Part shown: positions 20,283-42,800 of the stretch, piece after piece
How the letters are laid out: every line of letters starts with the position of its first letter
Numbering within the stretch: the first letter of the stretch is position 1
Origin: Streptomyces neyagawaensis
GTDB taxonomy: Bacteria > Actinomycetota > Actinomycetes > Streptomycetales > Streptomycetaceae
Assembly (NCBI RefSeq): GCF_023516595.1
Contig: NZ_JAMGBG010000048.1
Span: 1-64,000, forward strand
Length of the DNA stretch: 64,000 nucleotides
Direction: 5' to 3'
Notes under the pieces: model-generated
What the model was told of the DNA's origin: nothing
Seen by the model: only the letters and a program-made list of their open reading frames with translations
Database searches by the model: none
Program-made: the position numbers and the translations under genes

Positions 20283-21240
20283 TGAACCGCTCCGGGATCG
20301 GTGGAGGCTCTATGCGTTGACCCCAGCCGCCAGTTGGGGCTGGTGTTGAGCGTAGTAGTCGGTCTCGTGCTCGTGAGGCGGGATGTCTCCGATCGCTGTG
20401 TGCAGGCGCTGGTTGTTGAACCAGTCGACCCATTCCGCGGTAGCGAGTTCGACATCGGAGAGGCCGTGCCAGGGCTTGCGGGGCTTGATCAGTTCCGTCT
20501 TGTAGAGGCCGATCTGGGACTCCATGAGCGCGTTGTCCAGGGCGTCGCCGACGGTGCCGATCGAGGCGTCGATGCCGGCGTCGAGGAGGTGCGCGGTGAA
20601 CGCGAACGACGTGTATTGGCTCCCCGCATCCGAATGGTGAACCAAGCCCGGTCCAGCGGGAGTTCCGGAGCGATCGCGACGCCACAACGCCATGTCGAGG
20701 GCGTCGAGGACGAGCTTGGCCCGTTTGCTGGTGGCGGCGGACCAGCCCACGATCGCCCGGGAGAACACGTCCACGACGAACGCGACGTAGACGATCCCGG
20801 ACCAGGTGGCGACGTAGGTGAAGTCGGCGACCCATCGCTCGTTCGGCCGGGGTGCGGTGAATTCACGTCTGATCAGGTCAGCGGCCCGCTCCTGGCCGTC
20901 GTCCCGGATGGTGGTGCGGATCTTCTTCCCGCGTCGGGCGCCCTCCAGGCCGAGGTCGCGCATCAGCCGGGCGGCCGTGCAGCGGGCCGCCGGTATGCCT
21001 TCGCGGTGCAGCTGCCGCCAGGCCTTCCGCACTCCGTAGACACTGAAGTTGTCCGAGTGGATGCGGCTGATCTGGGCTTTCAGCTCCGCATCTCGCACCG
21101 CCCGAGTGCTCGGGGTGCGGTTCTTGGCGGCGTAGTAGGTGCTCGTTGCGATCTTCAGTCCATGGCTGGTCAGGACTCGGCAGATCGGCTCGACTCCGAA
21201 CACCTCGCGGTGAGCGTCGATGAACGCTACGAGCGTTTCG
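20283..21240 (-). mobile_element. IS3-family element, 5'-truncated (orfB only)
   Basis: The minus strand encodes an IS3 OrfB transposase ending at TAG 20310-20312. Catalytic DDE residues are visible in WVADFTYV, HHSDAGSQYT and NALMESQIGLYKTE, with the helix-turn-helix-like HREVFGVEPICRVL at its beginning. The terminus TGAACCGCTCCGG at 20283 looks like an IS3 end. OrfA and the other terminus are missing: similarity stops near 21240, exactly where plus-strand FG-GAP coding begins. Without OrfA and the frameshift signal, the transposase (residues 56-367 of the open frame) would have no proper start. Inactive remnant. Confidence 0.75.
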
Positions 21241-21242
21241 AC

Positions 21243-21668
21243 GGCCGGTCGAGCTCGGCGGTCTCGGTGGCGGACGTCAACGGTGACGGCTTCGGCGACA
21301 TCGCGCTCGGCATCCCGGGCGAGGACATCGGCGACATCACCGACGCCGGGTCCGTCGCCCTGGTCCCCGGCAGCGCCTCCGGTGTCACGGGCGCCGGTAC
21401 GCAGACCTTCCACCAGGACACCGCCGGGGTACCCGGAGTCGCCGAGAACGGCGACCAGTTCGGCGCGAGCAGCGCGCTACTGGACCTCGACGGTGACGGC
21501 CACACCGACCTCGCGGCCGGTTCCCCGGCCGAGAACAGTTGGAACGGGGCGGTCTGGGTGCTGCGCGGCACGGCGACCGGTCTCACGGCCACGTCGTCCC
21601 TCGCGTTCGGCGCTGGCGGCCCCTCGGCGCCCGCCACGGGCGCCCGCTTCGGTGCGCTCCTGCGCTGA
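21243..21668 (+). pseudogene. 3' fragment of an FG-GAP (integrin-like) repeat protein
   Basis: From about 21243 the plus strand encodes VSVADVNGDGFGDIALGIPG and LLDLDGDGHTDLAAGSPAEN. These are two FG-GAP blades with calcium-binding D-x-N-G-D-G / D-x-D-G-D-G loops, and the frame stops at 21668. Intact Streptomyces relatives are secreted seven-bladed propellers of 450-500 aa; here about 140 residues remain. The frame runs on to the left through the IS3 remnant only as antisense, so the gene was cut by the insertion and a later deletion. Confidence 0.65.
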
Positions 21669-26343: not shown

Positions 26344-27003
26344 TCATGGCTTCTGGACAAGAGGCGCGTCGGTGCGGGCGGCAATGTCCTCGGCGGTTAC
26401 ACCCGGCCCGCGTTCCACGAGCGTCAGGCCCTCGGGTGTGACGTCGAGGACGGCGAGGTCGGTGATGATGCGGTGGACGCACTGTTCGCCGGTGAGCGGG
26501 AGGGTGCACTCCTTCACGATCTTGGGGCTGCCGTCCTTGGCGGTGTGCTCCATGAGCACGATGACCCGGCGGGCGCCGTGGACGAGGTCCATCGCGCCAC
26601 CCATGCCCTTGACCATCTTTCCGGGGATCATCCAGTTGGCGAGGTCGCCGACGGCGGATACCTGCATGGCGCCGAGGACGGCGATGTCGATGTGGCCGCC
26701 GCGGATCATGCCGAAGGACAGGGCGGAGTCGAAGAAGGAGGCTCCGGGCAGGACGGTGACGGTTTCCTTGCCCGCGTTGATGAGGTCCGGGTCGACCTCG
26801 TGCTCGTACGGGTAGGGGCCGGTGCCGAGGATGCCGTTCTCGGAGTGCAGGACCACGTGGACGTCCGGCGGGAGGTGGCCGGGGATGAGGGTGGGCAGGC
26901 CGATGCCGAGGTTGACGTAGGAGCCGTCGGTGAGTTCGGCGGCGGCGCGGGCGGCCATCTGGTCCCGGGTCCAGCCCAACTGCGTACCAAGGGTGGTGCT
27001 CAT
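26344..27003 (-). CDS. 3-oxoacid CoA-transferase, subunit B
   Basis: 219 aa. Family I CoA-transferase beta subunit: [15 protein letters not shown], then [10 protein letters not shown] with the catalytic Glu55 (SENG motif), and [40 protein letters not shown]. With subunit A it moves CoA from succinyl-CoA to a 3-oxoacid (3-oxoadipate or acetoacetate), the activating step near the end of aromatic or ketone catabolism. Its ATG overlaps the subunit A stop by 4 nt. It is the last gene of the operon, followed by a strong bidirectional terminator. Confidence 0.9.
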
Positions 27004-27755
27004 GCGCGTACGGTCCTCTTCTCTATCTGCTTGTCGGCGGCCTGGGCCGGGGTGAGCACCACGAGGCGCTGGACGAAAATGCCCGGCAGGTGGATCTCGT
27101 CCGGGCTCAGCTCACCCGGCTCGACGACTTCCTCCACCTCGGCGACGGTGATCCGGCCGGCCATCGCCGCGAGGGGGTTGAAGTTGGCGGAGGACTTGCG
27201 GAAGACGAGGTTCCCGTGGCGGTCGCCGCGCCAGGCCCGTACGAGGGCGAAGTCGGTGGTGATGCCGTGTTCCAGGACGTAGGTGCGGTCGTCGAAGTCG
27301 CGGGTCTCCTTCGGCGGGGAGGCGAGGGCGACCGCGCCGTCCGCCGTGTGACGCCAGGGCAGTCCGCCGCGGGCGACCTGGGTGCCCACACCGGCCGGGG
27401 TGTAGAAGGCGGGTATGCCCGCGCCGCCGGCGCGCAGCCGTTCGGCGAGCGTGCCCTGCGGGACCAGCTCCACCTCCAGTTCGCCCGACAGGTACTGACG
27501 GGCGAACTCCTTGTTCTCGCCCACGTAACTGCCCGTGACGCGGGCGATCCGGCCGTCGGCCAGCAGGACGCCCAGTCCACGCCCGTCCACGCCGCAGTTG
27601 TTCGACACGACCTCCAGACCCGTGGCGCCCTGGGCGTGGAGGGCCTGGATGAGCACGTCGGGGATGCCACTGAGGCCGAAGCCCCCGACGGCCAGGGACG
27701 CACCGTCGGGAATGTCCGCGACCGCCTCGTCGGCGCTCGCCCAGACCTTGTTCAT
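27000..27755 (-). CDS. 3-oxoacid CoA-transferase, subunit A
   Basis: 251 aa. Alpha subunit motifs: [19 protein letters not shown] near the start, [34 protein letters not shown] and [18 protein letters not shown]. It provides the CoA-binding half of the heterodimeric enzyme. ATG start at 27755 with an AAGAAG-like site upstream; it overlaps subunit B by the ATGA junction, giving equal expression. Whether the acceptor is 3-oxoadipate or another 3-oxoacid depends on how the upstream ring cleavage proceeds. Confidence 0.9.
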
Positions 27756-27785
27756 GAGAAGAAGTGCCTTTCTTTCGCTGCGGGT

Positions 27786-28535
27786 TCAGGCGTGCTCGCG
27801 CAGGGCGTCCGAGATCGGTTTCGCACCGCCGTGGGCGGTGAGGCCACCGTCGACGGGGATCTCTGCGCCCGTGATGAAGGACGCCTCGTCGGAGAGAAGG
27901 AAGGTGACGAGAGGGGTGATGTCGTCGACGGTTCCGGTGCGGCCGAGCGGTGTCCCGTGGAGGTTCGCCTCGCGGAACCCGGGCGCCGCGGAGACGGTCA
28001 TGTCGGTCTCGATGAAGCCGGGGTGGATGATGTTCACGCGGATGCCGCGGGGCCCCAGTTCCATGGCGGCGGTCCTCGACAGGCCGCGCAGCGCCCACTT
28101 GCTCGCCGTGTAGGCGACCGGATAGTGGGCGGTCAGCGCCGCCGACGAACCGACGTTCACGATCGACGCGCCCGGACGCATCAGTGGCACCAGGTGCTGG
28201 ATGCCCAGGAGCGGCCCGGTGACGTTGACCGCGTGGACACGGGCCATGTCCTCGGAGCGTACGTCGTCGATCCGGGCGCGCCAGGTGACGCCCGCGTTGT
28301 TGACCAGGCCGTGCACCTGCCCGTACGCCTCGCGCAGGTCGGCGGCGAGTTCCGCCCAGTCCTTCTCGCTGGTGACGTCGAGGCGGCGGCAGCCGGCTGC
28401 CTCGGTCACGTCGGTGGCGATCACCCGGGCGCCCTCGCGGGTCAGGGCCTCGGCCTCCGCGGCACCCTGTCCGCCGGCCGCGCCGGTGACCACGACGACC
28501 CTGCCGAGGAGCCTCTTGGGGTGCGGGTCGGTCAC
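27786..28535 (-). CDS. SDR-family oxidoreductase in the catabolic operon
   Basis: 249 aa. Cofactor motif VVVVTGAAGGQGAAEAEAL at about 13-31, with Asp (IATDVTEA) marking NAD preference; NNAG near 90; catalytic YTASK with Ser upstream (VNVGSSAALTA); C terminus SFITGAEIPVDGGLTA. It overlaps the FAH-family gene upstream by 4 nt and precedes the CoA-transferase by 30 nt. In the operon it most plausibly oxidises a hydroxyl group of a pathway intermediate, either a ring-side-chain alcohol or a 3-hydroxyacid before the CoA-transferase step. That assignment is inference. Confidence 0.85.
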   Translation of the reverse strand: MTDPHPKRLLGRVVVVTGAAGGQGAAEAEALTREGARVIATDVTEAAGCRRLDVTSEKDWAELAADLREAYGQVHGLVNNAGVTWRARIDDVRSEDMARVHAVNVTGPLLGIQHLVPLMRPGASIVNVGSSAALTAHYPVAYTASKWALRGLSRTAAMELGPRGIRVNIIHPGFIETDMTVSAAPGFREANLHGTPLGRTGTVDDITPLVTFLLSDEASFITGAEIPVDGGLTAHGGAKPISDALREHA

Positions 28536-29503
28536 GGCCGCTCCCGGGGGCGGCGCCGGGCGACCGGAACCGGTAGGGGATCAAGGCCGGGCACCACGGT
28601 GTTGGAGACGGAGCCGATACCCTCGACGGTGAGTGTGACCGTGTCGCCGGGCTTGAGCGGCGGCGGGTCCTGTCTGCCGCGTACGCCCCACAGCTCGGCG
28701 AGGCAGCCGCCGTTGCCGCAGGTACCGGACCCGAGTACGTCGCCGGGGCGGACGAAGGTGCCCCGGGAGGCGTAAGCGACCATCTCCTCGAAGGTCCAGC
28801 TCATGTTGGACAGCAGGTCCTTGCCGACGACCTCGCCGTTCACCGAGGCGGTCAGCGCCAGGCGCAGGAAGCCGTCCGCGTCGCGGTACTCCTCCAACTC
28901 GTCGGCGGTGACCAGGTAGGGGCCCAGCGTGGTGGCGGTGTCCTTGCCCTTGCAGGGGCCGAGGCCGACCTTCATCTCGGCGGACTGAAGGTCGCGGGCG
29001 GACCAGTCGTTGAAGATCGTGTAGCCGATGATGTGGTCGCGGGCCTGCTCGGGGGTGAGGTCGCGGCCCTCCTTGCCGATCACGGCGGCGACCTCGAGCT
29101 CGAAGTCGAGCACGCTCGATCCCGGGGGCATGGGGATGTCGTCGTGCGGGCCGTACACGGCGTAGGGGTTGGTGAAGTAGAACGTCGGGGCCGCGTACCA
29201 CCGCTCGGGTACGCCGGCAGTGCCGTCCACGGACCGCCGTACGCCCTCGACGTGTTCCTCGAAGGTGACGAAGTCCCGCACGGTGGGCGGCTGGAGGGGC
29301 GGCAGCAGCCGTACCTCGGAGACATGTGGACCGGTCGGCACGTCGAGCGTCGCGGAGCCCGCTTCGAGCAGTTGCGGCAGGCCGCCCTCCTCGGCGAGTA
29401 GTCCGGTCAGGGAGTGGACACCGGGCAGGGGGCGGAGCATCCCGTCCTCGGCGACGACGGCCACATGGCGTCGGTTCTGGTACTCGTACGCGGCGAAACG
29501 CAT
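28532..29503 (-). CDS. fumarylacetoacetate hydrolase family protein 1
   Basis: 323 aa from ATG at 29503 (MRFAAYEYQNRRHVAVVAED); the open frame extends further upstream but similarity starts here. FAH domain: VRDFVTFEEHVEGVRRSVDG, ADxxE-type metal residues in SSVLDFELEVAAVIGKEGRD, then IFNDWSARDLQSAEMKVGLG and LGPYLVTADEL. These enzymes hydrolyse a C-C bond next to a ketone using Mg2+ (acylpyruvases, fumarylacetoacetase). Placed after the extradiol dioxygenase it would cut the ring-fission product or an acylpyruvate. A second, distinct FAH-family protein is encoded at the head of the same operon. Confidence 0.85.
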   Translation of the reverse strand: MRFAAYEYQNRRHVAVVAEDGMLRPLPGVHSLTGLLAEEGGLPQLLEAGSATLDVPTGPHVSEVRLLPPLQPPTVRDFVTFEEHVEGVRRSVDGTAGVPERWYAAPTFYFTNPYAVYGPHDDIPMPPGSSVLDFELEVAAVIGKEGRDLTPEQARDHIIGYTIFNDWSARDLQSAEMKVGLGPCKGKDTATTLGPYLVTADELEEYRDADGFLRLALTASVNGEVVGKDLLSNMSWTFEEMVAYASRGTFVRPGDVLGSGTCGNGGCLAELWGVRGRQDPPPLKPGDTVTLTVEGIGSVSNTVVPGLDPLPVPVARRRPRERP

Positions 29504-29614
29504 GCGGAGGTTCCTGTCGGCGTGAGGGGCGAGCATGGAGACCGGGGGTGCGGCGTCGGGAGTCAGGGCAGTTGACAGGGCCACCGCGCCCCCGGGGACT
29601 GAGGGACTCGCCGG

Positions 29615-30553
29615 TCAGACCGGCGGGGCGACGAAGCAGCCGCGGTCGACGTCGTTGAACGACTCCTTGGCGATCAGCTCGTTCATCGGGTTCGCCGTGC
29701 CCCACTGGTCGGTGACCTCGGGCTGGGAGAAGTCATAGACGTGCGGGTGCCAGGTGTCCTCGTCCAGCAGCTCCAACTCCGTCGTGTACTCGACGGTGTT
29801 GCCGTGCGGGTCCAGGAAGTACGTGAACGTGTTGTCGCCCGCCATGTGCCGGCCCGGGCCCCAGACCTTCTTGAAGCCGGCGCGGATCACGCGGCCGGAG
29901 CCGCGCATGTACTCGTCGATGCCGCGCATCTCGAAGGAGACGTGGTGCAGGGAGGTGTGCGGGCCCTTGGCGATGGCCATGGAGTGGTGCTGGTTGGAGA
30001 TCCGCATGAAGTGCATGACGTCACCGACGTGCGGCGAGCTGAGCGTGTCGGAGTGGCGGAAGCCGAGGTGGGTCTCGTACCACTCACGGGTCCTGTCCAG
30101 GTCCGGCGAGTTCAGCACGACATGCGACAGCTTGACCGGGATCGACTCCTTCTCCTCGATCTTGCGGTGCTGCCGTACGTCCACATCGGCGGAGACTTCG
30201 ATGGTGCGGCCGTCGACGTCGAAGAAGCGGAAGCCGTAGCCGCCACCGGGTGTGTCGATCTTGCCCGGCTGGGAAATCAACTGCACGCCGCCCGCGAGGA
30301 GTTGCTCGGCGAGGGCGTCCACGTCCGCCGCGCTCGCGGCGCCGTAGGAGACGAGGTCGAGGCGCTTCTCCTCGGCCTTGCGCAGCCGCACCACGTACTG
30401 TTCGGGGCTGCCCTCGGCGGCGAGGAAAGAGATGCCGGAGTCCTCGGCGACCTTGGTCAGGCCCCAGACACCGGCGTAGAAGTCGAGCTGCTTGTCGTAG
30501 TCGGGCACGGCGAGGTCGACGTGCCGCAGATGGGTGAGCAGGCGTGCGCTCAT
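29615..30553 (-). CDS. extradiol ring-cleavage dioxygenase (VOC, type I)
   Basis: 312 aa, two VOC modules. The second carries the Fe(II) ligands expected for catechol 2,3-dioxygenases: His144 in LSHVVLNSPD, His204 (or 203) in LHHVSFE and Glu255 in GNTVEYTTE; the PROSITE-like GNTVEYTTELELL segment is well kept. It opens a catechol-type ring next to the hydroxyls. Start ATG at 30553 with GGAGGAG upstream. It follows the amidohydrolase gene by 24 nt. This is the best anchor for calling the operon aromatic-degrading. The ring substrate is unknown; the length fits the 2,3-dihydroxybiphenyl/catechol group. Confidence 0.88.
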   Translation of the reverse strand: MSARLLTHLRHVDLAVPDYDKQLDFYAGVWGLTKVAEDSGISFLAAEGSPEQYVVRLRKAEEKRLDLVSYGAASAADVDALAEQLLAGGVQLISQPGKIDTPGGGYGFRFFDVDGRTIEVSADVDVRQHRKIEEKESIPVKLSHVVLNSPDLDRTREWYETHLGFRHSDTLSSPHVGDVMHFMRISNQHHSMAIAKGPHTSLHHVSFEMRGIDEYMRGSGRVIRAGFKKVWGPGRHMAGDNTFTYFLDPHGNTVEYTTELELLDEDTWHPHVYDFSQPEVTDQWGTANPMNELIAKESFNDVDRGCFVAPPV

Positions 30554-30577
30554 GGTGGGTTCTCCTCCTGTGGGGGG

Positions 30578-31606
30578 TCAGGTCAGGCGCAGCAGCGTTG
30601 TCGCGTTGCCGCCGCGCACGGCGTGGAAGTCGTCGTCGGGCAGGCGCGCGGCGCGCAGTGCGCCGACGGGGTCCTCGGTGCCCATGTCGAAGGGGAAGTC
30701 GGAGCCGAGCAGGACCCGGTCGGCGCCGGCCGCGCCGATCAGTGCCCGCAGTACGTGCGGGTCGTGGACGAGGGAGTCGAAGTACAGGCGCTTCAGGTAG
30801 CTGCTCGGTTCCCGGGTGCAGGCCTGGGCGTCGGGGCGGGCCCGCCAGGCGTGGTCGGAGCGGCCGATGTGGGTGGGAAGATAGCCACCCCCGTGCGCGG
30901 CTATCAGCTTCAGCTCCGGGTGCCGGTCCAGGACACCGGAGAAGATCAGGTGCGAGAGCGCGACGGCGTTCTCGGTGGGCTGGCCGACGGTGTTGGACAG
31001 GTACCACTGGTCGAGGCGCTCGTCGAGGGTGCAGCCGAAGGGGTGCAGGAACAGCAGCGCCCCGGTCTCCTCGGCGCGGGCCCAGAAGGGTGCGAGCCGC
31101 GGGTCGGAGAGCTCCACCTCCCGTGTCCCGCCGGGGCCCGGGGCGTGCGAGGAGATCTCGACGCCCTTCAGCCCCTGGTCCAGTGCGTGGTCGAGCAGCG
31201 CCACCGCGAGGTCGGGGTGCTGGAGCGGGATGAGGCCGAGGCCGTGCAGCCGGTCGGGGGCCTTGGCGCAGTGCGCGGCGGTCCCCTCGTTCGCCAACTG
31301 GCAGACGCGGGCGGCCAGTCCGGGGTCGGCCCAGTAGTGGTAGTGGCCGGGTGAGGGGCTCACCAGCTGCACGTCGACGCCGGCCACGTCCATGGCCGCC
31401 AGGCGCACGGCGACATCTGTCAGCCGTGGCACCCGCTCGCCGACCATGGGACCGTTCACGGCGAGGGCCGCAGGGCCGTTGCGTCGGGCGTCGAGGTTAC
31501 GTGCCTCGGCCAGGCCTGAGTGTCCGGCGACGGCCTCCTCGATCTCCGGCAGCAGCAGGTGGGCGTGGACGTCGATGGTCGGCGTGGAGGACGCGGTGGC
31601 GGTCAC
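30578..31606 (-). CDS. amidohydrolase-2 family enzyme (decarboxylase or hydrolase)
   Basis: 342 aa from GTG at 31606, overlapping the monooxygenase stop by GTGA. The metal site begins IDVHAHLLLPE (His14-x-His16); then LVSPSPGHYHYWADP, LFLHPFGCTLDERLDQW, IAAHGGGYLPTHIGRSDHAW and LLGSDFPFDMG supply the other His and Asp. This layout matches the ACMSD / o-pyrocatechuate decarboxylase branch. In the pathway it could remove a carboxyl group from an aromatic acid or from a ring-fission semialdehyde. The length is normal for the group. Confidence 0.85.
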   Translation of the reverse strand: MTATASSTPTIDVHAHLLLPEIEEAVAGHSGLAEARNLDARRNGPAALAVNGPMVGERVPRLTDVAVRLAAMDVAGVDVQLVSPSPGHYHYWADPGLAARVCQLANEGTAAHCAKAPDRLHGLGLIPLQHPDLAVALLDHALDQGLKGVEISSHAPGPGGTREVELSDPRLAPFWARAEETGALLFLHPFGCTLDERLDQWYLSNTVGQPTENAVALSHLIFSGVLDRHPELKLIAAHGGGYLPTHIGRSDHAWRARPDAQACTREPSSYLKRLYFDSLVHDPHVLRALIGAAGADRVLLGSDFPFDMGTEDPVGALRAARLPDDDFHAVRGGNATTLLRLT

Positions 31607-32766
31607 GGGCGCTCCTTGAGGAAGTCCATGGTGCGGGCGACCAGCCCGGCCATGTCGGCGTCGCGCACGCCGTCCAACTGCCACTGGCCGATCTGCACGG
31701 ACGCCTCGACGACGGTGCGCACCCGGGGGATGCGGCGCTCGTAGTAGCCCTGGAACAGCTCGTCGTCCCAGTCCCGGCCGCTGGTGAGCAGTTCGGCGAG
31801 GACGGAGGCATCCTCCAGGGACATGGCCGCGCCCTGGGCGAGAGTCGGCGGGCAGCAGTGGGCGGCGTCGCCGATGAGCACCACCCTGCCCCGGTGCCAG
31901 GAGCCCTCGATCAGGAGACGGTCGAACCAGGTGTAGTTGACCTTCTTCGGGTCGGTGATGTGCTCGGTGATCTCCGGCCAGACCCCGCCGTAGGCCTGCG
32001 CCAGGTGGCGCATCTCGTCGGCGTAGGTGGCCGGGTCGATGGAGGCCCGGTCGCGGCACGCTTCGACGACGTACGCGTAGATGGTGTTCTCGCTGGTGGG
32101 GCAGTAGCCGGCGATGTAGGCGGGGCCGCCGTAGGCGAGGTCGGTGCGCGTGACGCTCTCGGGCCGCGGGGCGGCGATGCGCCAGATCGCCATGCCGGTC
32201 GGCTCGGGTTTGTCGGTGATGCCGATCGCGGCACGCGTGGCGGAGTTGAGGCCGTCGGCGGCGATCACCAGGTCGTACCGCCCCTCTCTGCCGTCACTGA
32301 AGCGCACCGAGACGCCGTCGGCGTCCTGCTCCAGCACCTCGGCGGTGGTGCCGAGGAGAACGCGGGCGCCGGAGGCGTGGACCGCGTCGATGAGGATCTG
32401 CTGCAGCTGGGGGCGCTGCATGCCGAGGGTGGCGGGCAGGTCCTCCCCGCCGGTCTGGATGTCCTCGGCGACGAACAGCACGGTGCCGTCGGGGGCGGTC
32501 ACGCCCAACGAGCCGAAGGCGAACCCGGAGGCTTCCACCTTTTCCCACACGCCCAGTTCGCGCAGGACGCGCAGGGCGTTGCCCTGGAGGGTGATGCCGG
32601 AGCCGGTGGTGGCGTTCCAGTCGGGCTTCGCCTCGACCAGGTCGACGGCGATGCCGGCGCGGCGCAGCAGGACGGTGACGGCGTTGCCGGAGGCACCCCC
32701 GCCGATGACCAGGACGCTGGGGGTGCCCCCAGCCGGCGGCTGGGGGCGGGTGAGGCTGTCAGCCAT
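31603..32766 (-). CDS. FAD-dependent aromatic hydroxylase of the catabolic operon
   Basis: 387 aa from ATG at 32766 (MADSLTRPQPPAGGTPSVLV); the upstream extension of the frame is ignored. Motifs: VLVIGGGASGNAVTVLLRRA (FAD), VIAADGLNSATRAAI (DG motif) and VVLIGDAAHCCPPTLAQGAA (GD motif), the p-hydroxybenzoate hydroxylase plan. It resembles 6-hydroxynicotinate and salicylate-type hydroxylases and would add the second ring hydroxyl before the extradiol dioxygenase acts. It overlaps the amidohydrolase by 4 nt and is separated from the cyclase gene upstream by 182 bases containing a hairpin. Confidence 0.88.
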   Translation of the reverse strand: MADSLTRPQPPAGGTPSVLVIGGGASGNAVTVLLRRAGIAVDLVEAKPDWNATTGSGITLQGNALRVLRELGVWEKVEASGFAFGSLGVTAPDGTVLFVAEDIQTGGEDLPATLGMQRPQLQQILIDAVHASGARVLLGTTAEVLEQDADGVSVRFSDGREGRYDLVIAADGLNSATRAAIGITDKPEPTGMAIWRIAAPRPESVTRTDLAYGGPAYIAGYCPTSENTIYAYVVEACRDRASIDPATYADEMRHLAQAYGGVWPEITEHITDPKKVNYTWFDRLLIEGSWHRGRVVLIGDAAHCCPPTLAQGAAMSLEDASVLAELLTSGRDWDDELFQGYYERRIPRVRTVVEASVQIGQWQLDGVRDADMAGLVARTMDFLKERP

Positions 32767-32886
32767 GTCGGGGATACCTCCCGGGGTTGGGCCGCGCGGC
32801 TTCGCGCGGCGAGGTGCGGCTCGCCCGCTGGGAGTGCGGGGCTGGGGTGGGGACGGGGTGCGGCAGAACGGGTGGAGCGGTCCGGG

Positions 32887-32927
32887 CCGGATGCGCCCGT
32901 TGCTGTCCGGGGAGGAGGCGCATCCGG
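32887..32927. promoter_or_regulatory. inverted repeat inside the catabolic operon
   Basis: CCGGATGCGCC (32887-32897) and GGCGCATCCGG (32917-32927) are perfectly complementary arms around 19 bases. It lies in the 182-base gap between the cyclase and monooxygenase genes. It could be a partial terminator, a processing or stabilising stem, or a protein site; there is no T tract. Confidence 0.45.
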
Positions 32928-32948
32928 CGGCTGAGCGGGCTACTTGAT

Positions 32949-33920
32949 CTACTTGACGGCGATGGGGTTGACCGGGGAGCCGACGGCTCCGGTGATGGGC
33001 AGCGGTGCGGCGGTGAGCCAGAACTCGTACACGCCGTCCGCCGCGCAGTCGGCGGCGAGAACGTCGAGGTCCCACATCTCGCCGATCAGCAGGCCCATGT
33101 TGGGGATCACGATCTGGTGCAGGGGCTGGAAGGCGTTCTCGAACTCGTTCGGCCGTACCTCGAAGCCCCAGGTGTCGGTGGCGATCGCGGCGATCTCGGT
33201 GCCGTGCAGCCAGCCGGCGGTGGTGAACGACAGGCCGGGCGCCGGCCCGCCCGCGTAGTCGCCCCAGCCGTCGCGCCGGGCACGGGCGAGGTGTCCGGTG
33301 CGGACGAGGACGATGTCGCCGCGTCCGACGCTCACGCCGTGGGCCTCGGCGGTAGCGGTCAGGTGCTCCTCGGTGATCGCGAAACCGTCCGGCAGCTCCG
33401 GCCCGCCGTCGTCGTCACCGATGACCCGGGCCACGTCCAGCAGGACGCCACGACCGGCCACGTACGGGGCCATGTGCTCGATGCCGGTGACCAGGTCGCC
33501 GTCGGAGGTGACGACCTTCTCCGCGTCGCGTCCGTTCCAGGCCTTGCCGTGGTCGAAGATGTGCCCGAGGCCGTCCCACTGCGTGGAGCACTGCAGAGGC
33601 ATCGCGATCACGTCGTCCGCGCCGCCGATGCCGTGCGGGAAGCCCTGGTTGCCGAGGGCCGCGTCCGTGCCCGTGTCGAGCATGGTGTGCACGGGGTTGG
33701 TCCGCCGGCGCCAGCCCTTCTGCGGCCCGTTCATGTCGAAGCGCTGCGACAGCGAGAAGCTGACGCCCCGGCGCACGAGCCCCGCCCCTTCGCGGCGCTT
33801 GGCCTCGTCGAGGAAGTTCAGTGTGCCGAGCACGTCGTCCTCGCCCCAGCGCCCCCAGTTGGAGTACGCCTTGGCGGCCTCGGCGATCGCGCCCTCCGGG
33901 TCGTGGCGGTCCAGGCTCAT
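32949..33920 (-). CDS. cyclase-family (kynurenine formamidase-like) hydrolase
   Basis: 323 aa. PF04199-type metal hydrolase: VLGTLNFLDEAKRREGAGLV at the start, the metal region STQWDGLGHIFDHGKAWNG (with His/Asp replacing the short family's HxGTHxD), GVLLDVARV, VGRGDIVLVRTGHL and the late WGFEVRPNEFENAFQPLHQI with a conserved His. These enzymes hydrolyse amides, lactones or cyclic ketones. Its ATG overlaps the FAH-family gene upstream by 4 nt. An amide or lactone intermediate would therefore be expected in this pathway, which may point to a nitrogen-containing ring or a formamide; that is inference. Confidence 0.82.
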   Translation of the reverse strand: MSLDRHDPEGAIAEAAKAYSNWGRWGEDDVLGTLNFLDEAKRREGAGLVRRGVSFSLSQRFDMNGPQKGWRRRTNPVHTMLDTGTDAALGNQGFPHGIGGADDVIAMPLQCSTQWDGLGHIFDHGKAWNGRDAEKVVTSDGDLVTGIEHMAPYVAGRGVLLDVARVIGDDDGGPELPDGFAITEEHLTATAEAHGVSVGRGDIVLVRTGHLARARRDGWGDYAGGPAPGLSFTTAGWLHGTEIAAIATDTWGFEVRPNEFENAFQPLHQIVIPNMGLLIGEMWDLDVLAADCAADGVYEFWLTAAPLPITGAVGSPVNPIAVK

Positions 33921-34897
33921 GGCTTCTCCTCCACACAGCGGGTGCGCTGCACACCCAGACCGGTGATCGAACCCTCCATCACGTCGCCCTCGCGCAGCAG
34001 CCGCCCCCAGTGGATGCCGTTGCCGGCCGGGCTGCCGGTCAGCACCAGGTCGCCGGGCAGGAGCCGGGAGGTCCGGGAGATGTACGACACCAGCCGCGCG
34101 ATGCCGAAGAGCATGTCCTTGGTGGACTCGTCCTGCATGGTCTTGCCGTTCAGCTTCAGCGTGACCCGCAGATCACCCGGGTCGGCGATGGACCCGGCGG
34201 GGACGATCCAGGGCCCGAGCGGGGTGAAGCCCGGGGCGTTCTTGCAGCGCAGCCAGTCGGTGCCGATGGCGGGCATGTCCCGGCGGAAGACGGTGGCACG
34301 GTCGGTGAGGTCGTTGGCGATGGTGTAGCCGGCGACGTACTCCAGGGCCTCCTCGACGGAGACCCGGTAGGCGGGTTTGGCGATGACGGCCGCCAATTCC
34401 AGCTCCCAGTCGGGCTTCTCGGCCCATACGGGGAGTACGACATCGTCGTACGGGCCGGCGATGGTGCTGGGCAGGCCGATGAAAACGTACGGCAGGTCCT
34501 CGGCGGCCCGGCGGTCCATGATCGCGGCGATCTCGGCCCGCGCCTCCTCGACGGTGCGGGGGTCGTCGGGGGAGCGGTGGGCGACCTCGAGGTCGATCAC
34601 GTGCTGGCGGTAGTTGGCGCCGGACTGGAAGATCTGGCGGGGCTCCAGCGGGGCGTGCACCCTCAGGCCATCCAACGGCCGCCAGTCGAGGGCGTCCTCG
34701 TGCGCGAGGGTGTGCAGGACGGGGAGGGCCTCCTCCCACTGTTCCAGTACGGCACGTATGTCGGACGGCTCCCAGGCCAGGACCCGGCTCAGATCCAGCA
34801 CCCGCTCCCGGGCGACGAGACCGGGGAACGCGTCCTTGTCCGCGGCCGAGAACGTGCCGAGCGCGAAAGGGCCGACAGGTTGCGCGAGCGTTGCCAT
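33917..34897 (-). CDS. fumarylacetoacetate hydrolase family protein 2
   Basis: 326 aa from ATG at 34897, seven bases after a perfect AGGAGG. The FAH core reads QIFQSGANYRQHVIDLEVAH, EKPDWELELAAVIAKPAYRV with the metal-binding E-x-E, VAGYTIANDLTDRATVFRRD, and LLPGDLVLTGSPAGNGIHWG. It is a likely Mg2+-dependent C-C hydrolase or decarboxylase of ring-fission products, distinct in sequence from the copy at 28532. It heads the nine-gene operon, directly downstream of the divergent promoter region shared with the LysR gene. Confidence 0.85.
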   Translation of the reverse strand: MATLAQPVGPFALGTFSAADKDAFPGLVARERVLDLSRVLAWEPSDIRAVLEQWEEALPVLHTLAHEDALDWRPLDGLRVHAPLEPRQIFQSGANYRQHVIDLEVAHRSPDDPRTVEEARAEIAAIMDRRAAEDLPYVFIGLPSTIAGPYDDVVLPVWAEKPDWELELAAVIAKPAYRVSVEEALEYVAGYTIANDLTDRATVFRRDMPAIGTDWLRCKNAPGFTPLGPWIVPAGSIADPGDLRVTLKLNGKTMQDESTKDMLFGIARLVSYISRTSRLLPGDLVLTGSPAGNGIHWGRLLREGDVMEGSITGLGVQRTRCVEEKP

Positions 34898-34964
34898 CAG
34901 ATTTCCTCCTGCTGGTGTGCGGTCTACTCTGACCCCGATCAACGAATCAAGGAAATCAATCCTG

Positions 34965-34991
34965 TGGATGCAGCAAATCCACGAGATGGAT
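34965..34991. promoter_or_regulatory. overlapping dyads in the LysR/operon divergent region
   Basis: TGGAT (34965-34969), ATCCA (34977-34981) and TGGAT (34987-34991) form two overlapping inverted repeats, with spacers of seven and five bases. The first has the T-N-A style and size of LysR activator sites. It lies between the operon start (34897) and the LysR start (35020). A TATAGGCT (34997-35004) follows as a possible -10 for lysR. The binding role is inferred. Confidence 0.6.
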
Positions 34992-35019
34992 ACCTTTATA
35001 GGCTGCTAGGTGGTGCCCG

Positions 35020-35964
35020 GTGAACCTCTCCCGACTCGACCTCAATTTGGTCGTCGCCCTGCGCGCGCTGCTGGAGGAGCGCAACGTCACCAGAGCCGGC
35101 GAGCGCATCGGACTGAGCCAGCCGGCGATGAGCGCGGCACTGTCCCGGCTGCGCCGCCATTTCGACGACGAACTGCTCGCCCGGACCGGCAACTCCTACG
35201 AGCTGACCCCGCTCGGCGCCGCCCTGCGGGACCGAAGCGCGACCGCCTGCGACCTGCTGGAGCGTGTGTTCTCCAGCCAGGCCGACTTCGACCCGGCCGC
35301 TGAGACGCGCGAGTTCACCCTGCTCGCCTCCGACTACGGCGTGGCCGTGTTCGGCGCCGCGCTGGCCCGCGCCGTGCACCGGGAGGCGCCCGGGATCCGG
35401 TTCACCTTCCAGCACCCGGCGCCGTCGGTCGTGGACAACACCGCGACCGTGCTGAGTACCGTCGACGGACTGCTGATGCCGCACGGTGTCATCAACGGCC
35501 TGCCCGCCGTCGAGCTCTTCAGCGACCGCTGGCTGTGCCTGGTCGCCGACGATCACCCCGAGATCGGCGACGAACTCACCCTCGACCAGCTGGCCCGCCT
35601 GCCCTGGGCCGTCTACCAGCGCCCCTACGACGCCCCGGCCGCCCGTCAGCTGAGCATGCTCGGCATCAGCCCCCAGGTGGAGGTCTCCGTGCAGACCTTC
35701 CAGCTCCTCCCCCACATGGTCGAGGGCACCCGCCGCGTCGCGATGATCCAGGCACGCCTGGCCCGCCGCGCGGTCCGCTCCGCCGCGGTGCGCGTCCTGC
35801 CCTGCCCCTTCGAGGCCGTACCGGTCCAGGAAGCGCTGTGGTGGCACCCCGTGCACGCCCAGGACGCGGCCCACATCTGGCTGCGGCAGAAGGCCGCGGA
35901 GGTGGGCGCGACGCTGACGGACGGCGGGGCGGGCGCGGCCGTACCTCCTGCAGAGGGCGCATAG
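35020..35964 (+). CDS. LysR-family regulator of the catabolic operon
   Basis: 314 aa from GTG at 35020, with AGGTGG six bases upstream. The N-terminal winged helix reads LDLNLVVALRALLEERNVTR and GLSQPAMSAALSRLRRHFDD (residues 4-50). The effector domain is of the NodD/NahR type (FTLLASDYGVAVFGAALARA, ADDHPEIGDELTLDQLARLP). Regulators of this subgroup sense aromatic acids. It is divergent from the nine-gene operon with 122 bases between, and dyads in the gap fit co-control of both directions. Confidence 0.9.
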   Translation: MNLSRLDLNLVVALRALLEERNVTRAGERIGLSQPAMSAALSRLRRHFDDELLARTGNSYELTPLGAALRDRSATACDLLERVFSSQADFDPAAETREFTLLASDYGVAVFGAALARAVHREAPGIRFTFQHPAPSVVDNTATVLSTVDGLLMPHGVINGLPAVELFSDRWLCLVADDHPEIGDELTLDQLARLPWAVYQRPYDAPAARQLSMLGISPQVEVSVQTFQLLPHMVEGTRRVAMIQARLARRAVRSAAVRVLPCPFEAVPVQEALWWHPVHAQDAAHIWLRQKAAEVGATLTDGGAGAAVPPAEGA

Positions 35965-36134: not shown

Positions 36135-37403
36135 TCAGGCCAACTGCTCCGGCAACGGCCGGGGGTCCGCGGCGCCCGCGCGGCGGCGGGCCGCCAGCAG
36201 CCCCGCCGCGACCAGGGCGGCGGCCAGCCCCAGGATGCCCACCGCACCGGCGAGAGACCCGACCACCGACTCCACGACAAGCAGCACCAGTGGGCAGACG
36301 AACTCACCACCGAAGAAGGCCGCCGTCCACAGCCCTGTGCCGCGGCCGCGGTCCTTGAACGCCAGCCGGGACATGGCACTCGTGAGAAGGGCCGGCAGCA
36401 GCATGCCGGTACCCAGACAGTTGATGACTGCTCCGACGACCAGCAGCGGGGCGCTGCCCGCCAGGAACATTACGCCGAAGCCGGCAGCGCAGACCGCGAA
36501 GACGGCGGGCAGCATCGGGTCCGGGGAGCGCTCCAACCGGGCGAAGACGACAGCTCCGCCCACGGTGGCGGCACTCGCGAGCGCGGTGGCCAGACCGATC
36601 ACACCGGTGTTCTCCACCCCGAGGTCGTCGAGCAGGTACGCCATCTCCACCGGCACGGTGTAGAAGACCATCGCGCCGAAGAAGGTGAGCGCGCAGATGC
36701 CCGCCAGCTGCCGGAAGGGGAACGGACGGCGGGTCTCCTCCTCGACCCGGGCTTCCTCGATGGCCGTGCGGGACGCCGGGTTGGGCAGGGCGATGGCCAT
36801 CAGCGGGGCGATCAGCAGGCTCACGGCGTAGACCCAGAACGGCAGGCGCCAGCCCGCCGCGCCCACGGCGCCACCCAGCACGAAGAAGGCGGTGGCCGAC
36901 GCGGAGGCGCACATGGTCTGCAGTGCGAGGTACTTCACCCGCTGCCGGCCGCTGTAGTAGTCGCCGATCAGGGTGGTGCAGCAGGTCATGATGGCGGCCT
37001 CGGTGACACCGACCAGGGCGCGGCTGGCGATGATCGCACCCAGTGAGTCCAGCCAGAGCGGTGCCGTACCGAACACGGCGTAGAGGACGGTCGCCACCAG
37101 CAGCAGGCGCTTGCGGCCGAGCCGGTCCACGATCACCCCGGCGAACGGGGCCAGCAACGCCAGCGCCAGCGCCGGAACGGTCAGTGCCAGGGGAACCAGC
37201 GCCTTGGCCCCCGCGGTCGACGCGAAGTGGTCCTGCATCTTCGGCAGCACCGGAGCGATCAGCACCGCTCCCAGGATCGGCAGACAGCTGCCCGCCATCA
37301 GCAGGGTCACGCGCAGCAGATGGGGCGGACCCGAGACGGCAACGGGTGACGGAGCAGCGTCGTCGGCCACGGTGGGGGACGGTGGCGGAACGGAACCGGG
37401 CAT
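36135..37403 (-). CDS. MFS transporter (aromatic acid or drug permease)
   Basis: 422 aa with about twelve membrane helices. The first helix is LLMAGSCLPILGAVLIAPVL, and the loop 2-3 motif GVIVDRLGRKRLLL is the major-facilitator signature. Later FFGAMVFYTVPVEMAYLL and GTGLWTAAFFGGEFVCPLVL mark the second half. Its place beside the LysR gene and catabolic operon suggests uptake of the substrate or export of a toxic intermediate, driven by protons. It is convergent with lysR. The start ATG at 37403 follows a long leader (MPGSVPPPSPTVADD) before helix 1; a later start is possible. Confidence 0.85.
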   Translation of the reverse strand: MPGSVPPPSPTVADDAAPSPVAVSGPPHLLRVTLLMAGSCLPILGAVLIAPVLPKMQDHFASTAGAKALVPLALTVPALALALLAPFAGVIVDRLGRKRLLLVATVLYAVFGTAPLWLDSLGAIIASRALVGVTEAAIMTCCTTLIGDYYSGRQRVKYLALQTMCASASATAFFVLGGAVGAAGWRLPFWVYAVSLLIAPLMAIALPNPASRTAIEEARVEEETRRPFPFRQLAGICALTFFGAMVFYTVPVEMAYLLDDLGVENTGVIGLATALASAATVGGAVVFARLERSPDPMLPAVFAVCAAGFGVMFLAGSAPLLVVGAVINCLGTGMLLPALLTSAMSRLAFKDRGRGTGLWTAAFFGGEFVCPLVLLVVESVVGSLAGAVGILGLAAALVAAGLLAARRRAGAADPRPLPEQLA

Positions 37404-39848: not shown

Positions 39849-42800
39849 TCACGGGGCGACGGTGTGCGTGTCCGTGGCGGTGGAGCCGGCGAAGTCGGCG
39901 CTGCCGGGGTAGCTGGCGGTGATGGGATGCGTGCCGATATGCAGCGGGACGTTGACGGTGGTGGTGGCGCTGCCGTTGACGAGAGGCGCGGTGACGGGGG
40001 TGCGGTTGTGGAGGGTGAAGGTGACGCTGCCGGTGGGGGTGCCCGCTCCGGGTGCGACAGGTGTGACGGTCGCTGTGAGGGTGAAGGACTGTCCTGGCCA
40101 CGATGGGTCTGGGGAGGAGACCAGGGTGGTGGTCGTCAGTGCCTGGTTGACGGTGTGCGGGTCGGTGCCGCTGGAGCCGGCGAAGCTGGTGCTGCCGGTG
40201 TAGGTGGCGGTGACCGTGTACAGGCCGCTGGACCGGCTGGTGTAGGGGCGGGTGACAGTGGCGCTGCCGGAGGCGAGGGTGGCGGTGACGAGGCTGCTGC
40301 CGTCGCCGAAGTTGAAGACGACGGTGCCGGTGGGGGTGCCCGCTCCGGGGGCGACGGGCACGACGGTGGCGCTGAAGGTCACCGATTGGCCCACCACCGA
40401 CGGGTCCGGCGCAGACGTCACGGTCGTGGTGGTCGATGCCCGGTTCACGGTGTGGGGGTCGATGCCGCTGGAGCCGTTGAAGTCGGTGTCACCGTTGTAG
40501 GTGGCGGTGACGGTGTAGGGGCTGCCGGTCCTGCTGGTGTAGGGGCGTGTGGTGGTGGCGGTGCCGGATGTGAGGGTGGCGGTGAGAGGGCTGGTGCCGT
40601 CGCCGAAGTCGAAGACGACGGTGCCGGTGGGGGTGCCCGCTCCGGGCGAGGCGGGGGCGACGGTGGCGCTGAAGGTCACCGGTTGGCCCACCACCGACGG
40701 GTCCGGCGCCGAGGACACGGTCGTGGTGGTCGACGCCCGGTTCACGGTGTGGGTGTCCGTCCCGCTGGAGCCGGCGAACGCCGTGTTCCCCTCGTAGGTC
40801 GCGGTGACCGTGTACGGGCTGGTGCCTCTGGTGCCGTAGGAGTGGGGGATGGTCGCAGTGCCGGATGTGAGGGTGGTGGTGAGAGGGCTGGTGCCGTCGC
40901 CGAAGTCGAAGACGACGGTGCCGGTGGGGGTGCCCGCTCCGGGGGCGACGGGCACGACGGTGGCGCTGAAGGTCACCGATTGGCCCACCACCGAGGGGTC
41001 CGTCGCTGAGGTGACAAAGGTGGTGGTCGATGCCCGGTTCAGAGTGTGCGAGTGGGTGCCGCTGGAGCCGGTGAAGTCGGTGTCACCGTTGTAGGTGGCG
41101 GTGACCGTGTCGGGGCCGTCTCTCCTGCTGGTGTAGGGGCGGGTGACAGTGGTGGTGCCGCCTGCCAGGGCGGCGGTGGCGGGGGTGGTGCCGTCGCCGA
41201 AGTTGAAGGTGACGGTGCCGGTGGGCGTGCCTGTTCCGGGGGCGACGGGTGCGACGGTGGCGGTGAACGTCACCGGTTGGCCCACCACCGACGGGTCCGG
41301 AGCCGCGGCCACGGTTGTGGTGGTCGACGCCCGGTTCACGGTGTGCAGTGCGGCGCCTCCGGAGGAGACGAAGTCCAGGTCGCCGCTGTAGGTGACGATG
41401 ACCGCGTCGGGGCCGCCGGAGCGGCTGGTGTAGGAGTGGCTCACGGTGGCGGTGCCGTCGGTCAGGGGGACGGTGGCGGGGGTGGCTCCGTCGCCGAAGT
41501 CGAAGGTGACCGTGCCGGTCGGGGTGCCCGCACCGGGGACGAGGGGCACGACGGTGGCGGTGACGGTCACCGCTTCGCCGACCACCGACGGGTCCGGCGC
41601 CGACGTCACGGTCGTGGTGGTCAGAGCCCGGCGCACCCTGTGGGTGTCCGTGCCGGTGGAGCCGGTGAAATCCGCGTCGCCGTCGTAGGCGATGGTGACC
41701 ATGTACGGACTGCCCGCGGCACTCGTATAGGTGTGGTCGGTGGTGGCGACCGCCTCGGTGAGGGGCAGGGTCACGGGCGCGGTCCCGTCGCCGAAGTCGA
41801 GCGTGACGGTGCCGGTCGGGGTGCCCGCACCAGGGGCGACGGGCACGACGGTGGCGGTGAAGGTCACCGGCTCGCCCACGACGGACGGGTTCGGTACGGA
41901 CGCCAGCGCCGTGGTGGTCGATGCCTGGCCCACGATGTGGGTGTGGGTTGCGGCGGAGCCGGCGAAGTCCGCGTCGTCGTCGTAGGTGGCGGTGACCGTG
42001 TACGGGTTGCCGCTGGTGGTGGCATAGGCATGGATGATCACCGCTGTGCCGTCCAGGACCGGGGCGGCGGCCGGTGTCGTACCGTCGCCGAAGTCGAAGA
42101 CGACCGTGCCGGTGGGGGTGCCCGCTCCGGGTGTGACGGGCTCGACGTTGGCGGTGAAGGTGACCGGCTCGCCTACCACGGCCGGCTCGGGTGAGGAGGT
42201 GACCGAGGTGGTCGTGGGGGCCGGGTTCACGATCTGGACGTCGTACCCCGCGGAGGAGCTCAGCTCTTCGTTGTCGCTGGTGTAGACGGCGATGACCGGG
42301 TAGGGGCTGCCGGTGCCGGAGGTGTAGGTGTGGCTGATGGTGGCGGTCCCGCCCGACAAGGTGGCGGGGGCCTGTGGTGTGCCGTCGCCGAAGTCGAAGG
42401 TGACCGTGCCGGTGGGAGTGCCCGCGCCGGGGTCGGCGGGGGTGACGGTGGCGGTGAAGGTGACGGACTGCCAGACAGTCGACGGATCGGGCGCGGAGGT
42501 CACCGTTGTGGTGGTGGCCAGGACGTCGGCCAGCACCCGGTGGGTGCGGACGTCGGTGGAGGAGGCGTAGTCGGTGTCTCCGCTGTAGAAGGCGGTGATC
42601 GTGTAGGTGGCGTCGCCGGCCGGGTAGGTGTGGGTGGCTGTGGCCGCACCGTCCACGAGGGGCTGCTCGACAGCTGGTGTGCTGTCGCCGAAGTCGACGG
42701 TCACGGTGCCCGTCGGCCGCCCGCTGCCGGGGGCTGCCACGATGACCCGCACCGTGACGGACACCGGCCCGTCGGGATTCGACGGCTCCGGGCTGGACAC

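Follow-up and report, generated by a model that had tools for sequence, protein, structure and literature searches.

Which compound is broken down by the nine-gene operon of Streptomyces neyagawaensis at positions 26344–34897 of contig NZ_JAMGBG010000048.1? We analyzed the operon within the window, by which we mean the whole 64,000-nucleotide stretch of that contig, and followed its orthologs through other genomes. A first-pass annotation had left the substrate unassigned, and we could narrow it down, as orthologous operons lie near genes for the deglycosylation of C-glycosides. Because of this proximity, a flavonoid-type aglycone appears likelier than hydroxybenzoates, nicotinates, anthranilates, or phenylpropanoids. 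With a probability of roughly 0.55, the operon serves the catabolism of the aglycone of a polyphenol glycoside, most likely of flavones or flavanones with a phloroglucinol-type A ring, and we hold with moderate confidence that the substrate class can be named. Gene families, gene order, neighbors, and covariation were read from the sequences, and from them we infer the substrate, the order of the steps, and every activity.

The Operon and Its Conservation

The nine open reading frames lie on the minus strand and run from 34897 to 26344 in the order FAH1-CYC-FMO-AMH-EDO-FAH2-SDR-CoA_A-CoA_B. Profile matches bore out all nine and the families given to them in the first-pass annotation: two members of the fumarylacetoacetate-hydrolase family (FAH1 and FAH2), a cyclase-family protein (CYC), a flavin hydroxylase (FMO), an amidohydrolase (AMH), an extradiol dioxygenase (EDO), a short-chain dehydrogenase (SDR), and a two-subunit 3-oxoacid CoA-transferase. 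The four-base overlaps said to join the genes are present at four of the eight junctions (FAH1/CYC, FMO/AMH, FAH2/SDR, and CoA_A/CoA_B), while at the other junctions the genes stand 24 to 182 bases apart; the start of FAH2 is uncertain between 29584, 29536, and 29503.

From at least 565 relatives (at least 589 stretches) in the genome collection, we kept 80 named loci, 79 of Streptomyces and one of Nonomuraea. Loci from the other searches were not pooled with these, as some of them are the same places. Gene order was compared in the 66 loci with full context, omitting the other 14; in 62 of the 66, FAH1-CYC-FMO-AMH-EDO-FAH2 follow one another without interruption, and the gaps between them never exceed 290 bases. 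Counting genes at ≥50% identity over all 80 loci, where contig ends lower the counts, we found FAH1 in 79, FMO in 78, EDO and the LysR-family regulator in 75 each, AMH in 74, and FAH2 in 73; SDR was present in 61, the MFS transporter in 48 (in either orientation), and subunits A and B of the CoA-transferase in 31 and 32. A search with EDO among 297 genomes of the Streptomyces family gave 66 genomes at E ≤ 1e-60 and 43 at ≥84% identity, and one genome of the same genus carries the operon at 93–99% protein identity. As the core order is so rarely broken and EDO recurs in 43 of the 297 genomes, the operon is a real conserved unit and more than a chance arrangement; the earlier view of a single aromatic-catabolic unit stands. 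In our view, the pathway proper consists of the six-gene core, to which SDR and the CoA-transferase are accessories.

The source genome holds four copies of EDO, three of them in operons with the six-gene core and one elsewhere. The second operon, on contig C2, has all nine genes, with EDO near 225 kb; the third, at ∼79–85 kb of contig C214 and thus 15–21 kb past the end of the window, has the six-gene core without SDR and CoA-transferase. The fourth EDO copy (70% identity) belongs to a different cluster on contig C13. Weak intradiol matches of the protocatechuate-dioxygenase type (C2:233027–233455 and C214:74286–74654) were seen ∼5 kb or less from the other two operon copies and perhaps mark a hydroxyquinol-type side pathway. 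In a second, rearranged cluster type (L080–L085; 42–70% identity), most of these families recur, and a HisD-like dehydrogenase and a FAD-linked oxidase are additionally found in five of the six loci. Cyclase homologs on a Rhizobium and a Rhodococcus plasmid were rejected, none of the other core genes standing beside them.

Association with C-Glycoside Genes

A plasmid of Arthrobacter sp. StoSoilB13 encodes FAH1-CYC-FMO-AMH-FAH2 at 49–75% identity and, ∼12–16 kb upstream of this operon, two genes for the C-glycoside deglycosidase beta subunit (CGDB; PF19906, both above the cut-off). Sugar-isomerase-like partners, Gfo/Idh/MocA genes, and sugar ABC genes lie near the CGDB genes. There are also two GMC genes of pyranose-oxidase-like character that score under the cut-off of TIGR02462, one upstream and one just downstream. 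We read the region as a C-glycoside island.

Co-occurrence was studied in 199 genomes of one actinobacterial family, the operon-bearing set being defined by CYC at E ≤ 1e-100 and not by the whole operon. A CYC ortholog was found in 20 genomes from 14 genera (FMO in 19 of these, FAH2 in 20, and FAH1 and AMH in 13) and CGDB in 14 genomes from 10 genera. All CGDB genomes fall inside the CYC set, giving 14/20 with CYC versus 0/179 without (Fisher 3.5e-17, a value in which kinship overstates independence); at the level of genera, the counts are 10/14 versus 0/71 (Fisher 3.2e-10). After removal of three CGDB rows below the family cut-off, the distance between CGDB and CYC was 2.9 to 18.8 kb in 12/14 CGDB genomes. 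Binomial values for this proximity presuppose a 3.4-Mb genome and uniform placement, and we do not count them as evidence. Another phylum provides a similar neighborhood: on a Sphingobium plasmid, a CGDB pair lies ∼9 kb from homologs of FMO and EDO (35% and 46%, respectively), together with Gfo/Idh, GMC, beta-glucosidase, and FAH-like genes and a PF04199 cyclase of another subfamily.

Such an association could arise at the level of habitat only, with plant-associated bacteria keeping both kits in catabolic islands and the operon degrading an unrelated phenol. Aromatic-catabolic genes do travel together, and protocatechuate dioxygenase (TIGR02422; gene pcaH), which served as the control for aromatic catabolism and was found in 48 of the 199 genomes, is itself concentrated in the operon genomes (19/20 versus 29/179 of the others). 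Among the genomes with pcaH, however, CGDB still tracks the operon, being present in 13/19 with CYC and 0/29 without; in 12/14 it lies no more than 20 kb from CYC, and the link recurs in Arthrobacter and, as distant homologs, in Sphingobium. We therefore consider a mere sharing of habitat very improbable.

The CGDB association is silent on which aglycone is released, and the same logic of hydroxylation, meta-cleavage, and trimming could be applied to a xanthone (mangiferin), an anthraquinone (kermesic acid), or an isoflavone. The wider neighborhood points elsewhere: of the 19 CYC genomes with pcaH, 8 have it no more than 20 kb from CYC, and 8 of the 20 have a pobA-like gene (scoring under the family cut-off) at such a distance, which suggests 4-hydroxybenzoate and protocatechuate as products and fits flavones better. 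The presence of both FAH1 and FAH2 would also fit the A ring of a 5-hydroxyflavone. Aglycones of these other types thus seem unlikely to us, and we prefer flavones or flavanones; in Streptomyces, the substrate may take the form of an O-glycoside, a C-glycoside, or the free aglycone.

Enzymes of the Proposed Route

For the catabolism of a flavone or flavanone, the first enzyme would be FMO (31603–32766), a group-A flavin hydroxylase (PF01494, 123.2 bits) that matches NCBIfam PRK06847 at 458.4 bits against a cut-off of 372. It is 35–44% identical to the FMOs of sphingomonad clusters, of type II clusters, and of clusters like the flavonoid-degrading fde operon, and 25–28.5% identical to 3-hydroxybenzoate 6-hydroxylase, pobA, and MhpA-type FMOs; by these identities, it is closer to the fde-like FMOs than to the other hydroxylases compared. 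The fde comparison used a Massilia plasmid cluster (order FMO-VOC-Rieske-HisD-SDR-FAH), whose FMO is 39% identical, as a stand-in for the sequences of FdeE/FdeC and IfcA/IfcB. We propose that FMO is an A-ring hydroxylase and would act at C8, beside an existing hydroxyl group.

EDO (29615–30553) is a two-domain type I (VOC) extradiol dioxygenase with two stretches matching PF00903; it scores 248 bits to 3b59_A and 55 bits to catechol 2,3-dioxygenase. A 2-His-1-Glu site (H in LSHVV, H in LHHVS, and E in VEY), whose residues we take to be the iron ligands of a type I extradiol enzyme, is conserved in 147 homologs. Meta-cleavage by EDO would fall between C8 and C8a and leave a pyranone ring with an acylpyruvate side chain. 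The regiochemistry was chosen after the isoflavone-degrading ifc cluster, for which an accumulated intermediate, 2-hydroxy-5-(4-hydroxyphenyl)-4H-pyran-4-one, is reported that retains the pyranone ring (PMC11069340). In our own reading, this compound keeps the C ring, has lost C5 to C8, and fits a cleavage beside C8a.

The side chain would then be removed by FAH1 (33917–34897; PF01557, 215.5 bits), producing pyruvate and a ring carboxylate. Its nearest solved relative is L-2,4-diketo-3-deoxyrhamnonate hydrolase, a pyruvate-releasing enzyme, and it gave no match to the fumarylacetoacetase profile at 0.001; FAH1 is a candidate acylpyruvase.

AMH (30578–31606, with a GTG start; PF04909, 148.8 bits) is the candidate decarboxylase of the ring carboxylate. 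Its best solved relatives are ACMSD enzymes, with 186 bits to human ACMSD, and the metal ligands and the catalytic His of ACMSD are kept in the alignment to 2wm1/8yt2. Arg47 is a substrate residue of ACMSD. AHGGG and an Asp are conserved across the AMH homologs, and the equivalent of Arg47 (human numbering) is Gly in AMH and variable in 137 homologs, although the alignment may be two residues off at this position. In the scheme, FAH1 and AMH act consecutively and are therefore expected to come and go together; of the 20 loci read in the CGDB-bearing family, 13 have the two genes and 7 have neither (1.3e-5, ignoring kinship), and two further actinobacterial loci agree, with both genes in L209 and neither in L208.

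The likeness of AMH to ACMSD, with metal and catalytic residues kept, would also suit a carboxylated catechol of the 2,3-dihydroxybenzoate or 3-hydroxyanthranilate type whose cleavage product is decarboxylated in ACMSD style. We judge this the least probable of the alternatives weighed here, given the variation at the Arg47 equivalent, the lack of a semialdehyde dehydrogenase or aldolase among the nine operon proteins, and the absence of AMH from 7 of the 20 loci. A decarboxylase could alternatively act at the start, on a resorcylate, in the catabolism of orsellinate or alkylresorcinols: AMH would be followed by FMO, yielding a trihydroxybenzene, by EDO, yielding a trioxo acid, and by the FAH enzymes, releasing pyruvate and a 3-oxoacid. 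This order would use all core enzymes and end in a 3-oxoacid, and a group of VOC, FMO, FAH, and amidohydrolase genes is found on a plasmid of a lichen-associated Polymorphobacter. AMH, however, scores only 92 bits to gamma-resorcylate decarboxylase, half its score to ACMSD, and the CGDB association and the nearby pobA and pcaH are left unexplained; we think orsellinate or an alkylresorcinol quite unlikely.

Among the later steps of the flavone route, opening of the residual aryl-pyranone lactone is proposed for CYC (32949–33920), the weakest assignment of all. The protein matches the cyclase family PF04199 at 77.3 bits (cut-off 23.1) and belongs to the 5IBZ subfamily (5ibz_A, E 1.6e-52). Among the loci eligible for an alignment of CYC, identity in this protein was 87–98%. 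Of the lactone or amide step that the first-pass annotation derived from CYC, the family membership stands, while the motif HxGTHxDxPxH, which we take to mark the active site of PF04199, is replaced. SDR (27786–28535, with a GTG start; PF13561, 194.9 bits) may oxidize a hydroxy-3-oxo acid and would be used, for its hydroxyl group, where the substrate is a flavanone.

FAH2 (28532–29584; PF01557, 191.4 bits) is a fumarylacetoacetase-like C–C hydrolase. It matches the fumarylacetoacetase model TIGR01266 with 74.4 bits (8e-21), far under the cut-off of 375.3, and its motif DFxxFExHxEG is conserved in 144 homologs. We propose that FAH2 releases acetoacetate: it would cut 5-aryl-3,5-dioxopentanoate, a compound that shares its 3,5-dioxo acid end with fumarylacetoacetate, and the second product would be an aromatic acid.

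Subunits A (27000–27755; TIGR02429, 235.9 bits) and B (26344–27003; TIGR02428, 337.2 bits) of the 3-oxoacid CoA-transferase both score above their cut-offs, in line with the earlier expectation of a 3-oxoacid product, and would activate the acetoacetate. Such an activation agrees with the CoA-transferase itself and with three observations in relatives: a CoA-transferase and thiolases adjoin the operon in locus L210, an acetoacetate-CoA ligase accompanies EDO in a Corynebacterium cluster, and a gene annotated as acetoacetate-CoA ligase on a Rhodococcus qingshengii plasmid (L190:9986–12070) encodes N-terminal EDO-like VOC domains and C-terminal AMP-binding domains. The last is either a fusion or a deletion join.

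With each gene used once, the 15 carbons of apigenin would be recovered as 3 in pyruvate, 1 in CO2, 4 in acetoacetate, and 7 in 4-hydroxybenzoate. Tentatively, and with less than even odds, we suggest that the operon encodes a complete pathway, not described before, by which flavone aglycones enter central metabolism, with an ACMSD-family pyranone-carboxylate decarboxylase, a variant-site "cyclase" lactonase, and a fumarylacetoacetase-like aroylacetoacetate hydrolase forming hydroxybenzoate and acetoacetate, and that together with the CGDB genes it makes up a full C-glycosyl-flavone island in several actinobacterial genera.

Observations Weighing Against the Proposed Substrate

Several observations count against a flavonoid aglycone or against parts of the route. 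CGDB had no match in the source genome or in 14 control genomes, although the same model matched 14 of the 199 others, and it occurs in only 1 of the 297 Streptomyces-family genomes, on a contig other than that of its operon; for this reason, the C-glycoside link was drawn from relatives. In those relatives, 6 of the 20 CYC genomes lack CGDB, and in 2 of the 14 CGDB genomes, the two genes are 785 kb apart or on different contigs. The dioxygenase in 18 of the 20 loci of that family is of the catechol-2,3-dioxygenase type and 22–25% identical to EDO, and in the other two, no dioxygenase was found within the stretch read. FAH1 and AMH are both missing from 7 of these 20 loci.

Among the enzymes themselves, the deep branches of the FMO phylogeny are unresolved, identities being used instead, and the 35% match of EDO to the VOC protein of the fde-like Massilia cluster covers the C-terminal half only. 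CYC has QCSTQWDGLGH in place of the PF04199 motif, so the family's hydrolase motif is not kept; the variant is found in 136 of 155 distinct homologs, with the first His in 0/155 and the second in 3/155. The nine operon proteins include neither a Rieske protein, as in fde, nor an IfcD-type cupin, as in ifc. The CoA-transferase is present in only 31–32 of the 80 named loci and could be a 3-oxoadipate enzyme instead. Finally, four Streptomyces loci (L003, L049, L051, and L054) have 3-hydroxybenzoate 6-hydroxylase-like and gentisate-dioxygenase-like genes downstream of the operon, and these would suit 3-hydroxybenzoate rather than 4-hydroxybenzoate.

Genes around the Operon

Divergent from the operon lies a gene for a LysR-family regulator (35020–35964, plus strand; PF00126 and PF03466), as in the fde operon, whose FdeR is a LysR regulator too. 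The 122 bases between them (34898–35019) presumably contain LysR-controlled promoters. The MFS transporter gene beyond (36135–37403, minus strand; PF07690, 135.8 bits) is the probable transport partner of the operon. The other flanking genes of the window, as scanned, gave no hint of the substrate. A transposase gene with an integrase core (20310–21413, minus strand) is found to the left of the operon. On the right, also on the minus strand, 39849–44507 encodes a protein of 1552 amino acids with N-terminal beta-propeller-like matches and eleven bacterial Ig-like stretches, and 53262–56476 holds a LodA-like lysine epsilon-oxidase gene adjoining a halogenase-like flavoprotein gene, the usual LodA/LodB pairing.

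The neighborhoods of relatives vary. Five Streptomyces loci (L003, L049, L051, L054, and L056) have, next to the operon, a LacI gene and one for a sugar-type solute-binding protein. A trio of ornithine-cyclodeaminase-like, aldehyde dehydrogenase, and DHDPS-like genes is found downstream of the operon in Streptomyces loci L066, L069, and L073 and also adjoins the EDO cluster of a Corynebacterium plasmid (L001). A separate cluster of Streptomycetaceae (L089–L091 and L094–L097) is conserved around a 40–44% homolog of EDO and has genes for an aldehyde dehydrogenase, an aspartate-dehydrogenase-like protein, an alpha/beta hydrolase, a cupin, an SDR, a TPP enzyme, a ferredoxin-domain protein, and a Rieske oxygenase; similar gene sets occur on plasmids of Nitratireductor and Vibrio.

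Comparison with Known Systems

Plants contain flavonoids and C-glycosides of these in abundance. Bacterial cleavage of the A ring has been described from Herbaspirillum and Variovorax, and removal of the sugar of C-glycosides from soil actinobacteria. With an operon whose dioxygenase recurs in 43 of 297 family genomes and a scheme that balances 15 carbons, the fate of the aglycone can be put directly to the test, and regioselective hydroxylases, decarboxylases, and C–C hydrolases become available as candidates.

Within open-licence papers, no characterized operon with the same gene set and order was found, in agreement with the first-pass annotation, and neither was an aglycone operon beside C-glycoside genes; the papers on neighborhoods of C-glycoside oxidases described car-type clusters only. 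One report states that the other enzymes of the C-glycoside gene cluster are still to be investigated (PMC8563793). Three known pathways were considered and rejected. The kpi pathway of 4-hydroxypyridine has an FMO and a FAH gene, but its dioxygenase is an Amidohydro_1 protein (PMC7356986); the gene set of the carbofuran cfd operon, as far as the source at hand describes it, does not match (PMC8292978); and a whole kynurenine/ACMSD pathway disagrees with a dioxygenase of the VOC type and with the loss of Arg47. The canonical catechol meta-pathway differs in its semialdehyde dehydrogenase or hydrolase, hydratase, and aldolase, none of which was recognized in the operon, although a hydratase of the FAH fold is possible; the annotation had likewise reported no meta-pathway hydratase or aldolase and no ortho-pathway lactonizing enzyme, and none was recognized among the operon proteins.

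The closest parallels are the systems for flavonoid A-ring cleavage. In the fde operon of Herbaspirillum seropedicae SmR1, acting on naringenin, a flavin hydroxylase acts at C8 and a VOC ("glyoxalase") dioxygenase then opens the A ring (PMC8552027, PMC11303751, PMC11069340), and FMO and EDO would form a similar pair. The hydroxylase is called FdeE and the dioxygenase FdeC, and a Rieske electron carrier, FdeD, belongs to the system as well (PMC8552027, PMC11069340). FdeD has no counterpart in the operon, which in turn has CYC, AMH, two FAH proteins, and the CoA-transferase. The Massilia plasmid cluster resembles the fde enzymes. In the ifc cluster of Variovorax sp. V35, acting on isoflavones, 8-hydroxylation by an FMO and subsequent dioxygenation are reported, as proposed here; according to the same source, two flavonoid 8-hydroxylases, IfcA and the product of fdeE, share only 36.3% identity (PMC11069340). 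The ifc cluster uses the cupin IfcD on the pyranone, whereas the operon would use CYC and FAH2 for the later steps. The operon shares the trait of a group-A FMO and a VOC dioxygenase in one unit, with AMH between them, and we propose by analogy that it works like the Fde/Ifc cleavage of the A ring with a new lower pathway. As it has neither the Rieske nor the cupin component, we do not count it as a member of that group.

The ends of the route have parallels of their own. The car/dgp clusters for C-glycosides remove the sugar, and the aglycone thereby set free would be the substrate of the operon; CGDB-type genes are found near orthologs of the operon on the Arthrobacter plasmid and in 12/14 CGDB genomes. 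The fumarylacetoacetase of the tyrosine/homogentisate pathway is a distant homolog of FAH2, for which we propose the same cut of a 3,5-dioxo acid giving acetoacetate, with an aryl group replacing the fumaryl group of the substrate.

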